Assembly (NCBI RefSeq): GCF_032884065.1
Contig: NC_088880.1
Span: 29,229,298 to 29,293,297, forward strand
Direction: 5' to 3'
DNA: 64,000 nt
From: Artemia franciscana
Taxonomy: Eukaryota; Arthropoda; Branchiopoda; Anostraca; Artemiidae
The notes below the pieces were generated by a model that worked only from the letters and a program-made list of their open reading frames with translations, was not told the DNA's origin and searched no databases. Position numbers and translations under genes: made by a program. Position 1 is the first letter of the stretch. Each line of letters begins with the position of its first letter. This document shows positions 20,901 to 21,905 of the stretch, in pieces.

Positions 20901-21905
20901 TTTCCAGCTTTTTCAACCATATACCCGTTGTCAACTTTTTTAGCCATCTACCTTTTTCGAACTGATTTCTAGTGTATATCTAGTGTAAATTTGAAGTTTG
21001 AGGGGGGGGGGGTAGCTAAGATATTGTCCTGGGAAGAACAATGAAGACACGTTTGGCACAGAACCCCCAACATTTGTATTTGACTCGTAAAAAAGTAACG
21101 ACAATGCATATTAAAATTTTTTTTGTAAAGTTTCCCCCCCCCCTACTGCATTTGTTGAAGAACCATTCTTTTGTTATTGGTATTTTGGAGTCAAAATAAT
21201 TTATTATCAGTACTGATTGGCTTTTGGAATTGTTAATACATTATATGCTAATAATTACAATTATGCTTATTAGTTTTAAGTTCTTTTCCAGAATTTTATC
21301 TGTCGGTGTTTGTTTGCTTATTTCTTATTAGTTATAACTTATTAATTAAAATAAAAATGTCATGGTTATTAATTTAAATTTCGTTTTTAGACTCGTATTC
21401 ATCGTTTTTTAATCTATTAATTTGAACTAATTAAATAGTTAAAAATATTAATAGTTACTAATTGCATTTTCTTTTTCAGAGTTTTATTCGTTGTTGTATG
21501 TTTATTAGTTTTTTGTTAATAAAAATATAATAATTAATTTAAAATGTCATGCTAAGTAATTAAAATTTCTTTTAAAAATTTTATTCAGTGTTATTCACTT
21601 TATTAATTAATCGGTCAAACATATCATTACTAAATATTTTTTTCTTTTTTTTTCAGAATTTTATTCGTCGTTGTTTAGCATATAGGAAAGAAGATAGAGA
21701 CGATGTTATAACACTTTCCAAACACGAGTATCTCCAGCCACCCATCTCAAAACACAGCAAAGCAGCTCAAGCTCAGCAACAAGCTGCACAGCAGCAAATA
21801 CAGCAGCCATCAGGTGGTAGCAGTTCAACTTCGTTCCTGCAACCCAGTTCCTTCTCAGGTGGGCTTTTTGCCTCGGGCGGAAATGCTGCGTCCAGCTCAT
21901 CGTAG
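2819..21905 (+). CDS. TLK: Tousled-like serine/threonine kinase, 3' part (six exons)
   Basis: Six exons joined at GT/AG borders give 507 codons and a TAG stop: 2819-2937, 5159-5399, 8485-8928, 11216-11466, 18218-18437, 21657-21905. Human TLKs are about 720-770 residues, so the N-terminal third lies upstream of the window. In joined numbering, residues 1-120 hold a helical, charged region with basic KRKP and TRKR clusters, and about 121-165 a coiled coil. The kinase domain runs from about 172 to 445: glycine loop GKGGFSEV (179-186), ATP-binding Lys 201, helix-C Glu 224, catalytic HYDLKPGN (Asp 302), DFG (Asp 323), PPE (Glu 357) and DVWS (Asp 373). The tail is rich in Gln and Ser. All catalytic residues are present, so the enzyme should be active. 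Family knowledge: TLKs are nuclear, dimerise through coiled coils and phosphorylate ASF1 histone chaperones during S phase. Introns total about 17.5 kb and are packed with repeats. Confidence 0.96.
3240..3990. repeat. Minisatellite of TCAACG-rich units in TLK intron
   Basis: About 750 bp of tangled repeats built from modules such as TTTTCAACGTTGTCTTCAAC and GGTAATCAACGTTGTAAT. The units vary in length (roughly 20-60 bp) and order. Many modules contain the palindrome AACGTT. The short open frames here (3466-3717, 3814-4101) reflect the repeat and not a gene. Confidence 0.9.
4100..5158. other. Rest of TLK intron a, little structure
   Basis: AT-rich intron. A small repeat is visible: AATTTAGCTTTGC(C/T)GACTCATTTTC occurs near 4733 and again near 4949. 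Nothing coding is supported. Confidence 0.4.
5159..5399 (+). CDS. TLK: TLK exon b (basic and Ser/Thr-rich linker)
   Basis: The acceptor is AATTTTAG at 5151-5158 and the donor GTATTA at 5400. The exon encodes 80 residues after the shared Lys codon: a helical stretch ([15 protein letters not shown]), basic clusters KRKP and TRKRA that could serve as nuclear localisation signals, a Ser/Thr/Ala-rich linker, and the conserved [10 protein letters not shown] that leads into the coiled coil. It ends in phase 0. The equivalent linker is also poorly conserved among known TLKs. Confidence 0.92.
5495..5705. repeat. GCGTTAGTAAAGCTTG minisatellite
   Basis: About ten copies of a 16-24 bp unit (GGCGTTAGTAAAGCTT and GGCGTAAAGCTTGGC variants) directly downstream of TLK exon b. 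The array is locally very regular between 5560 and 5690. Confidence 0.9.
6357..6726. mobile_element. hAT-type MITE with perfect TIR and 8-bp target duplication
   Basis: The terminal inverted repeat CAGAGGCGCCATTTGG occurs at 6357-6372 and perfectly inverted at 6711-6726. The 370-bp element is flanked by the direct repeat CTAACGTT at 6349-6356 and 6727-6734. An 8-bp target duplication and a CAG-starting terminus are diagnostic of hAT transposons. Both subterminal regions carry long G-runs (6368-6386, 6664-6676) and the motif TGCCCACCCCA. There is no transposase, so it is non-autonomous. The intact target duplication suggests a fairly recent insertion into the TLK intron. Confidence 0.9.
7701..7790. 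repeat. (AT)n microsatellite
   Basis: About 90 bp of uninterrupted AT dinucleotide in the TLK intron before exon c; gives an artificial Ile-Tyr frame. Confidence 0.98.
7936..8225 (+). repeat. Dispersed repeat, copy 1 (partner at 23956-24245)
   Basis: This shares ordered blocks with the later copy: TAAAG(T/C)GTCGAAACCC, TAATTGGAT(G/A)GATGA, AAGGTTAAG(G/A)CCTCATTCAA, and a TTTCT/CTC-rich end. Both copies lie about 140 bp or less from (AT)n tracts, so the tract may be part of the family. No coding potential. Confidence 0.7.
8485..8928 (+). CDS. TLK: TLK exon c (coiled coil and N-lobe of kinase)
   Basis: A pyrimidine tract of CTT repeats and TTTTAG end at 8484; the donor GTATGT starts at 8929. 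The exon encodes 148 residues in phase 0/0. The first 45 form a coiled coil ending in [16 protein letters not shown], a hallmark of TLKs. The N-lobe follows: glycine loop [12 protein letters not shown] with the ATP-binding lysine, [12 protein letters not shown] with the helix-C glutamate, and hinge region [17 protein letters not shown]. The ATG at 8533 is internal, not a start. Confidence 0.97.
10408..10529. repeat. (AT)n microsatellite
   Basis: About 120 bp of AT dinucleotide in the TLK intron between exons c and d. Confidence 0.98.
10530..10760. repeat. Short tandem and direct repeats after the (AT)n tract
   Basis: A 34-bp unit (GAATTTTCTAAATCTGGTTA plus ATGTTGACATTCGT) is present twice at 10561 and 10595 with a third partial start at 10629. 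GGTTGGGTTAGTTCATG occurs at 10531 and again near 10733, bracketing the stretch. Confidence 0.75.
10944..10987. repeat. Perfect 14-bp hairpin in TLK intron
   Basis: AATATTATTCTGGA at 10944-10957 is followed by its reverse complement TCCAGAATAATATT at 10973-10986, with a 15-base AT-rich loop. It may be the remains of a small fold-back element. Confidence 0.6.
11216..11466 (+). CDS. TLK: TLK exon d (catalytic and activation loops)
   Basis: Acceptor TTTTTCAG ends at 11215; donor GTAAGT starts at 11467. The exon encodes 83 residues plus TG of a Trp codon. It contains [15 protein letters not shown], the catalytic loop [12 protein letters not shown] (the family has HYD in place of HRD), the Mg-binding DFGLSK, and the activation segment up to GAGTYW. 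Two conserved positions (MDLTSQG) match the activation segment of other TLKs. Phase 2 at the end matches the single G at 18218. Confidence 0.97.
11530..12245. repeat. Irregular minisatellite with GGACATGACCACGTTGCTTTT modules
   Basis: The module GGACATGACCACGTTGCTTT recurs with changes at about 11562, 11656, 11813, 11949, 12127 and 12230, separated by 90-180 bp of short CTTACTGTCACTGTTAC-type repeats. The short open frame at 12027-12212 lies entirely within the repeat. It begins 60 bp after TLK exon d. Confidence 0.85.
12908..13043. repeat. (AT)n microsatellite
   Basis: About 135 bp of uninterrupted AT dinucleotide, directly beside the RTE-like reverse-transcriptase scrap. Confidence 0.98.
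13098..13301 (-). pseudogene. Reverse-transcriptase fragment of an RTE/BovB-like LINE
   Basis: The minus strand reads [20 protein letters not shown] followed by DYILR. This is the reverse-transcriptase motif block preceding the catalytic FADD (typically GVRQGCxLSPxLFNxxIDxIxR) found in RTE-type non-LTR retrotransposons. Only about 65 codons remain open, with no endonuclease part and no catalytic Asp pair, so it is a dead fragment in the TLK intron. The + strand ORF at 13306-13593 shows no domain. Confidence 0.75.
13725..13890. repeat. CAGTTAAACGGGGCTGAGTTGCA minisatellite
   Basis: About seven copies of a 17-27 bp unit (CAGTTAAACGG, TGAGTTGCACGGGTCC variants). One pair of 33-bp units around 13777-13845 is almost identical. 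Confidence 0.85.
14331..14856 (-). other. Unidentified compact ORF region (two overlapping frames)
   Basis: This patch is more GC-rich than its surroundings and has two overlapping minus-strand open frames: 14518-14856 (112 codons) and 14331-14621 (96 codons, other frame). The minus strand contains GTACACCAG three times (followed by GTGGCG twice), giving LDVHQ/NVHQ-type repeats in one frame. The two frames could be one coding sequence broken by a frameshift near 14550. I recognise no domain. A decayed transposon protein is the most likely explanation. Confidence 0.3.
14938..15145. repeat. AT-rich TAATAATTA low-complexity tract
   Basis: About 200 bp made almost only of A and T, in TAATTA/ATTATTAAT patterns with many short palindromes. 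Confidence 0.85.
15540..15690 (-). repeat. Fragment of a C-run dispersed repeat family
   Basis: Several modules (CCCCCGGGGAAATACCTCCATGAAGG, CGGGAATTATTTCC-like, CCCCCAGAC) read on the opposite strand like the G-rich modules near 46470-46570 and 62190-62310. Probably the same repeat family inverted. Confidence 0.4.
15770..16560. other. TLK intron, nothing firmly recognised
   Basis: Mixed AT-rich sequence with short G-runs (15950-15976, 16260-16270) that look like worn repeat fragments. GGGGACTGCCCCTTCCTC at 16127 recurs in similar form near 49479. Nothing coding. Confidence 0.35.
16645..17005 (+). mobile_element. 3' end of a CR1/L2-like LINE
   Basis: A 39-codon open stretch (16645-16761, stop TAG 16762) reads ...[20 protein letters not shown] then KHKLKKYLL. 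This matches the C-terminus of LINE ORF2 proteins (W-N-S-L-P...S...FK..LK..L). It is followed by a 240-bp UTR ending in TCGATAAAGTGAATTGAACT, the repetitive GAATTGAACTGAA type of tail seen in such elements. It is 5'-truncated, as usual for LINE insertions, and lies sense to TLK. Confidence 0.75.
17638..17775 (+). repeat. Direct repeat, left copy (partner 20648-20785)
   Basis: AAGCTTTTC(T/C)(T/A)GGGCAAA, then ATGCCCCTCGTTTGAGTAAA and CAATTGATTCTCTACA are present in both copies in the same order and orientation, 3.0 kb apart. The two copies bracket TLK exon e and repeat element copy A. Confidence 0.8.
18218..18437 (+). CDS. TLK: TLK exon e (P+1 loop and C-lobe)
   Basis: TTTATTTAG ends at 18217 and the donor GTAAGT starts at 18438. 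The first G completes the Trp codon of the previous exon, then [22 protein letters not shown] and KPFGHNQSQ follow, ending in VVSPEAK in phase 0. The Pro-Pro-Glu that closes the activation segment and the helix-F Asp (DVWS) are intact. The exon lies between two direct repeats (17638 and 20648) and just left of repeat element copy A. Confidence 0.96.
18682..20378 (+). mobile_element. Large hairpin-ended repeat element, copy A
   Basis: Starts with a hairpin (ACTTGGT, T5, ACCAAGT at 18685-18703), then AGCGATCGCAAATTCTGTCG, GGTCCCGGTTTTGCTA and GCTAGGACGATGAAATTTGG. The interior is imperfect tandem units, each with GATCGGATCTTAATGAAATT, a G-run, CTTGGAAAACGCTTAGAGTG and TAGATACGTGATTGACATAA. Unit starts near 18916, 19209, 19503, 19668 and 20085 give spacings 293, 294, 165 and 417 bp. 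The right end is truncated at about 20378 relative to copies B and C. No transposase. It lies in the last TLK intron, sense orientation. Confidence 0.85.
20648..20785 (+). repeat. Direct repeat, right copy (partner 17638-17775)
   Basis: See the left copy. Order, strand and spacing of the shared blocks are the same, with scattered substitutions, so this is an old duplication or two insertions of one repeat. Confidence 0.8.
21292..21656 (+). pseudogene. Four decayed tandem copies of the last TLK exon's start
   Basis: Copies of the intron-end/exon-start module begin at 21292, 21391, 21480 and 21577; the real exon is at 21657 (steps 99, 89, 97, 80 bp). Read in exon phase they give [28 protein letters not shown] and NFIQCYSLY, against NFIRRCLAY in the real exon. 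Each soon reaches a stop. Three keep an AG acceptor (CCAG, TTAG, TCAG) and the fourth has lost it. Spacer sequences also match (AAAATGTCATG in two units, TAATTAAA(A/T)TTTC). Confidence 0.75.
21657..21905 (+). CDS. TLK: TLK last exon (end of C-lobe and Gln/Ser-rich tail)
   Basis: A long T tract and TTTCAG end at 21656. The 82 codons start with [14 protein letters not shown], the conserved final helix of the kinase domain, followed by HEYLQPP, a Gln/Ala-rich segment of about 20 residues and a Ser/Gly-rich end ...ASSSS, then TAG at 21903-21905. The tail resembles the low-complexity, Ser-ending tails I recall for insect TLKs rather than vertebrate ones. Four decayed tandem copies of this exon start lie just upstream. 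Confidence 0.95.
   Translation, partial: NFIRRCLAYRKEDRDDVITLSKHEYLQPPISKHSKAAQAQQQAAQQQIQQPSGGSSSTSFLQPSSFSGGLFASGGNAASSSS

Follow-up and report, generated by a model that had tools for sequence, protein, structure and literature searches.

Minisatellites which lie across an intron-exon boundary have been described in amphioxus as 'mirage' minisatellites, where tandem duplications over such a boundary are found in Adh3 and in the globin genes BflGb6 and BflGb9 (PMC3087553). In BflGb6, the repeated unit consists of the 3' end of an intron together with the 5' part of the next exon; six and three units have been reported for two haplotypes, and these units are 81–100% identical. Many copies within the amphioxus arrays retain their splice signals, and the data on Adh3 and the globins suggested that splicing is undisturbed (PMC3087553). 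For PGBD5 of the lancelet, imperfect repeats of 60 and 108 bp have been reported at splice sites (PMC3902484). Here, we describe an array that appears to be of this kind at the last 3' splice junction of a gene for a tousled-like kinase (TLK), located within a stretch of 64,000 nucleotides of contig NC_088880.1 (positions 29,229,298 to 29,293,297), which was analyzed as a whole and is called the window in the following.

Judged by its structure, the TLK array fits the definition of a mirage and would therefore belong to an already described kind of repeat. It contains five tandem units (u1 to u5), each of which spans an intron-exon boundary, and one of these, u5, is predicted to be the authentic junction, as it is joined to the body of the exon and the encoded protein matches human TLK2 without a gap. 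As described for BflGb6, the 3' end of the intron and the 5' part of the exon are repeated, although the TLK units are more diverged, with 66–78% identity over the aligned columns in contrast to the published 81–100%. Perhaps the TLK array also differs from the amphioxus mirages in its host lineage. In the literature searched, the word 'mirage' occurred in two lancelet papers only.

Further systems are related more distantly. In the RdRp gene of potato, a duplication over the 3' end of intron 1 and the beginning of exon 2 created a new intron, the donor of which came from a cryptic site (PMC4974935). This is in contrast to the TLK gene, where the extra copies sit inside an old intron. For human genes in segmental duplications, variable internal tandem repeats have been described, which are recent, have units of ~30 bp on average and ~4 repeats, and boundary minisatellites among them can alter the gene structure (PMC2812944). 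The TLK array shares the position on an exon-intron boundary with the latter; unlike the repeats of that account, it is old, diverged and intronic. In Drosophila, some new introns have been proposed to originate from the tandem duplication of exonic proto-splice sites (PMC2891723). Here too, tandem duplication affected a splice-competent site, but the TLK copies repeat an existing boundary and no new intron is seen.

Architecture of the junction array and tests against chance

The five units of ~80–99 bp each, composed of the intron tail and ~25 nt from the start of the last TLK exon, occupy the last ~430 bp of the intron, and the array is 82% AT. Each unit displays the intron tail, a T-rich tract, an acceptor position and ~25 nt resembling the start of the exon, and the intron tail of the next unit comes directly after each copy of the exon start. 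Only u5 adjoins the body of the TLK exon. All units are on the plus strand. Unit u1 (21229–21315), the left end of which is arbitrary since the alignments to the later units start at 21240, carries the ghost junction TTCCAG followed by AATTTTATCTGTCGGTGTTTG, with the AG at 21290–21291. In u2 (21316–21414), TTTTAG is followed by ACTCGTATTCATCGTTTTTTA (AG at 21389–21390), and in u3 (21415–21503), TTTCAG by AGTTTTATTCGTTGTTGTATG (AG at 21478–21479). These three units are supported by unit alignments, shuffles and searches of the window. Unit u4 (21504–21600), weak as a single match, has lost the AG and reads TTTAAA followed by AATTTTATTCAGTGTTATTCA. Finally, u5 (21601–21680) contains, according to sequence and alignments, the real 3' splice site and the exon start NFIRRCLA.

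The ghost acceptor positions end at 21291, 21390, 21479 and 21576 and the real acceptor at 21656, which results in spacings of 99, 89, 97 and 80 bp. The AG is kept in three of the four ghosts, while ghost 4 has AA at 21575–21576. The first-pass annotation had placed the ghost starts at 21292, 21391, 21480 and 21577 and the real start at 21657, and these coordinates are exact. Averaged over all pairs of the five units, identity amounts to 0.66 over the 18 columns that end with the acceptor, and to 0.72 and 0.57 in exon columns 1–12 and 13–24, respectively, compared to 0.37 expected from the composition. On the side of the exon, the first 30 nt match the array with a score of 28, reached by 4 of 500 shuffles. 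For the rest of the last exon (21687–21905), no match to the array was revealed, its score of 17 being attained in 370 of 500 shuffles. Tandemly duplicated, mutually exclusive exons, which arise when an exon is copied completely, including both ends, were considered as a class for this locus and rejected because the exon past its first 30 nt is unmatched.

The same annotation had claimed that the junction of intron end and exon start is repeated in tandem about every 90 bp before the last TLK exon. This is borne out by the shuffles as well as by periodic lags. With the 38-nt real junction as a query, the scores of the four best upstream matches add up to 112 of 152, a value reached by none of 5000 dinucleotide shuffles (85.3 ± 2.48, maximum 96), and for two 22-nt queries the four-copy sum was likewise reached by 0 of 5000; five such matches are thus not expected by chance. 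A banded self-alignment of 21235–21680 gave scores of 157, 181 and 79 at lags of 70–110, 165–205 and 255–295, above all 100 shuffles, with self-similarity near 90, 188 and 270 bp. The lags in between (115–155 and 210–250) scored 46 and 33, which is below the shuffle mean and was reached by 91 and 95 of 100 shuffles, respectively. Using blastn, 21281–21497 was aligned to 21469–21674 with 70% identity over 218 columns (E 2.9e-20), at a lag of two units. Unit by unit, the repeat signal is present as well: eight of the ten pairs exceed all 300 mononucleotide shuffles, and u1–u2 and u4–u5 fall short. Neither of the two tests named in the first-pass annotation as able to refute it, the shuffles and the unit alignments, did so, and the array is not due to chance.

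For single copies, searches of the full window on both strands gave a more graded result. With the AG plus 20 nt as a query, the best non-self matches are ghosts 1, 3 and 2 (19, 19 and 17 of 22), and ghost 4 (16 of 22) is equalled by two matches on the minus strand. With the 38-nt query, ghost 4 (25) is equalled by six matches elsewhere. If the query is restricted to the exon (27 nt), all four ghosts (18–19) are outscored by a match at 32724 on the minus strand (20). Since equal or better matches exist elsewhere in the window, ghost 4 and the exon part are not distinctive singly. The best single match of an exon-only 22-mer was reached by 44 of 5000 dinucleotide shuffles. The best matches of whole units outside the array score 51, 51, 51, 59 and 57 for u1 to u5. 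An ungapped 60-mer lag scan did not distinguish the array (5 lags) from 60 AT-rich controls (median 6), several of which fall in simple-repeat arrays, and Tandem Repeats Finder (TRF) did not call the junction array at a score of 30. The array as a whole is secure; single copies, ghost 4 most of all, depend on register and context.

A sixth copy upstream (20900–21232) was not found: the five units score 22–34 there, each under the mean of null windows, which were 70–85% AT compared to 64% for this stretch. Just past the TLK stop, 21911–21996 resembles u5 (a T-run, AG, then TTTAGCAT) with a score of 57. It is the top match of u5 outside the array (the next scores 50) and exceeds the null maximum of 42, which was taken from 200 AT-rich windows of 333 bp for a searched stretch (21700–22400) of 701 bp. 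Matches of u4 outside the array reach 59, and the match at 21911–21996 is largely T-rich. Possibly it represents another old copy of the junction, but it is not clearly above chance and was left out of the unit count.

Coding and splicing potential of the ghost copies

Read in the phase of the exon, all four ghosts are similar to NFIRRCLAY; ghost 4, for example, reads NFIQCYSLY. The earlier observation that the ghosts spell variants of this peptide, and that three of them retain the AG, was therefore correct. All four reading frames reach a stop at codon 10–18. In codons 1–7, ghosts 2, 3 and 4 have undergone solely non-synonymous changes (4, 3 and 4), and ghost 1 shows three synonymous and one non-synonymous change (P 0.026 by simulation, uncorrected for the four copies). 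Purifying selection on the ghosts was not found over these seven codons, apart from the weak signal of ghost 1. The codon changes are no evidence for maintained coding, and the coding-like decay proposed by the first-pass annotation is not upheld.

As acceptors, the ghosts are weaker than the real site. At positions −20 to −4, the real acceptor has pyrimidines in 17 of 17 positions and ghosts 1 to 4 have 12, 11, 13 and 11; for three further TLK acceptors the count is 16, 13 and 12, the last value belonging to 18217. On paper, ghosts 1 and 3 would be not hopeless as acceptors. Three ghosts keep an AG with pyrimidine counts near that of a true acceptor, so that the silence of the ghosts is presumed. 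Use of a ghost acceptor would end TLK early and remove the end of the kinase domain.

The junctions read AG/AA in u1 and at the real site, AG/AC in u2 and AG/AG in u3, u4 being without AG, and none of them contains AGGT. Intron gain by tandem duplication according to the Rogers model, in which the donor and the acceptor of a new intron come from a duplicated AGGT proto-splice site, was also considered and rejected, since this motif is missing at every junction and no protein insertion is present at the boundary.

Host gene and tandem repeats of the window

The identity of the gene as a TLK was established by comparing hand-joined exon translations with human TLK2 (PDB 5o0y), which gave a whole-query E value of 5e-123. 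Pfam Pkinase matches are present in two TLK exons, at 8485–8991 and 18219–18434 (the latter with E 2.5e-9), and the last TLK exon, searched alone against Pfam, matched no family. The penultimate TLK exon in the window (18218–18437, plus strand; ...VVSPEAK) was assigned by sequence, the Pkinase match and the match to TLK2. It is followed by the donor GTAAGT, which begins at 18438, and by the last TLK intron (18438–21656, plus strand, 3219 bp, phase 0), for which donor and acceptor were read from the sequence. As revealed in part by TRF, the middle of this intron holds an array with a period of ~292 bp, and the junction array lies at the 3' end. The last coding exon (21657–21905, plus strand), an open reading frame (ORF) with a Q-rich tail, is preceded by TTTTCAG and ends with the TAG stop at 21903–21905. 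The tail of this TLK appears arthropod-like.

If the predicted donor and acceptor are joined, the protein continues past ...VSPEAK without a gap relative to human TLK2. Therefore, the boundary in use shows no shift, and the alternative that the exon itself had slipped to the newest copy, which had also been put forward in the first-pass annotation, is not supported; what sets the 3'-most copy apart is simply that the exon body adjoins it. A search for TLK relatives confirmed none of seven pattern matches in viral contigs and one of 69 in genome contigs, a 63-nt match in a Clostridia metagenome-assembled genome (L001), which was not used.

The window has a GC content of 35%, and the last TLK intron has a length of 3.2 kb; both are compatible with the 34% GC and the intron length of 3458 bp published for the Artemia genome (PMC8406910), although this is no proof of origin. 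TRF hits with a score of at least 80 and a period of at least 20 bp, merged by hand into 17 intervals, make up 10.4% of the window. When 7104 AG-anchored 22-mers were tested for upstream copies, the TLK junction took rank 34. Its score is equalled or surpassed by 33 others (five with an equal score), every one of which is located in the arrays 3286–3937 and 27365–28501. No upstream copies of this kind are present for the TLK acceptors 8484, 11215 and 18217 (sums of 46, 42 and 45 vs. 71 for the junction). Tandem duplication is thus ordinary for this window; what stands out is the position on a splice junction.

Among the other repeats, a satellite-like family with a period of ~292–297 bp is found as arrays or partial copies at 18844–20371 (plus), 42383–45142 (minus) and 52104–53927 (plus), with 74–86% identity to 18844–19630, and one array of this family is the one inside the last TLK intron. 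The stretch 27365–28501 is an array of 12.6 copies with a period of 88 bp and a core of 4.7 copies at 28013–28424 (93% matches). The junction array of TLK has a similar period; among the 14 matches listed per TLK unit, none lies inside 27365–28501, the nearest being that of u5 at 27101–27173 (score 50). At 56265–56583, a 159-bp unit is duplicated in tandem (two copies, 97% matches), probably recently. A reverse transcriptase fragment at 38604–38984 (minus; Pfam RVT_1, E 3.6e-12) is probably the remnant of a long interspersed nuclear element. The ORF at 39732–40118 (minus), which starts with MENSEGGTKVYQEKERTEFIKYLQQLG, yielded only a sub-threshold phage family in Pfam (E 0.0098) and presumably resembles the c-Myc-binding protein (MYCBP). 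Known RNA families were not detected in the window at gathering thresholds.

Origin and meaning of the array

The copies in the intron most likely derived from the start of the exon, because this start lies in a conserved kinase stretch whose alignment to human TLK2 is gap-free. Of the two possibilities raised by the first-pass annotation, repeated local tandem duplication at the TLK acceptor is well supported. The ordered, step-by-step decay also described there is not supported, since the identities of ghosts 1–4 to the real junction are 30, 28, 30 and 26 of 39, which is no gradient, and the units group, with weak support, as u2/u4 and u3/u5. The mean alignment score is highest for pairs separated by one intervening unit (62.7, compared to 48.0 for adjacent units), an outcome matched by 6 of 120 unit orders (or by 3 of 60, with mirror orders taken as one), and the unit tree ((u2,u4),(u3,u5),u1) has ultrafast bootstrap values of 66 and 51 and FastTree supports of 0.87 and 0.74. 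Together with the long blastn alignment at the two-unit lag, which is consistent with it, this suggests that early duplications gave three units, the last two of which were then copied jointly. This would be the likeliest history, albeit a weakly supported one.

Very probably, the TLK array is a decayed minisatellite whose repeat unit lies over the 3' splice junction. Several observations weigh against parts of this interpretation. By percent identity, the closest pair is u1–u4 with 78%, compared to 73–75% for pairs two apart, which does not fit the two-unit pattern, and the order of events depends on the weak node values (66 and 51) and on the 6 of 120 unit orders. The synonymous excess in ghost 1 would fit some coding use in the past. 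The pyrimidine counts of the ghosts that keep an AG (12, 11 and 13) lie around that of the true acceptor 18217 (12). Finally, the whole-unit scores of u1–u2 (46), u1–u5 (49), u2–u5 (49) and u4–u5 (45) are within the range of matches outside the array.

The ghost acceptors could instead be alternative 3' splice sites in use, leading to C-terminally truncated TLK isoforms, for example from ghost 1. This would be in line with the three retained AGs and their fair pyrimidine counts, with the ratio of three synonymous to one non-synonymous change in ghost 1, and with the identity of 0.66 up to the acceptor, where composition predicts 0.37. It appears improbable, since ghosts 2, 3 and 4 carry solely non-synonymous changes over seven codons, every product would be without the end of the kinase domain, and the ghost tracts are poorer in pyrimidines than the real one. 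Still somewhat less credible is the extended form, in which the array acts as a functional string of alternative acceptors and ghosts 1 and 3 are spliced at a low or tissue-specific level to yield truncated TLK isoforms, so that the splice-site minisatellite would adjust the dose of TLK.

The exon-phase similarity to NFIRRCLAY in all four ghosts could also point to whole exons that had been duplicated and of which remnants are left, for instance dead alternative last exons. This is very unlikely, because 21687–21905 has no counterpart in the array and the next intron tail comes directly after each exon start. Chance, by which five similar strings would have arisen in an AT-rich and T-rich intron, could draw on the 82% AT of the array, on ghost 4 and the exon part being equalled or, by one minus-strand match, outscored elsewhere, on single units scoring 51–59 outside the array and on the ungapped lag scan (5 lags vs. 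a control median of 6). With the four-copy sum at 0 of 5000 shuffles for each of three queries, similarity that is confined to multiples of the unit length, and a blastn E value of 2.9e-20, it is a nearly negligible explanation.

For the decayed minisatellite, a plausible course of events can be outlined. A tandem duplication by slippage or unequal exchange, reaching from ~60 nt before the acceptor to ~25 nt into the exon, would have placed an extra junction upstream, and later duplications, perhaps including one two-unit event, would have led to five junctions. Since only the 3'-most junction yields full-length TLK, it would have stayed under selection, and the upstream copies would decay neutrally as intron. 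Of all sites, the real one has the strongest pyrimidine tract, and the spliceosome would be expected to favor it. As ~10% of the window consists of tandem arrays, an array that caught a splice site is therefore most likely a neutral by-product.

The TLK array thus appears to be a clear and old case of a conserved kinase gene in which a tandem repeat has captured a splice acceptor. It suggests that several additional acceptor-like sites, all of them leading to a stop, can be present in such a gene next to an intact real site. Provided that the host lies outside the cephalochordates, the known range of mirage-type repeats would be widened. Furthermore, the array would represent a natural test of how the spliceosome chooses among similar acceptors.

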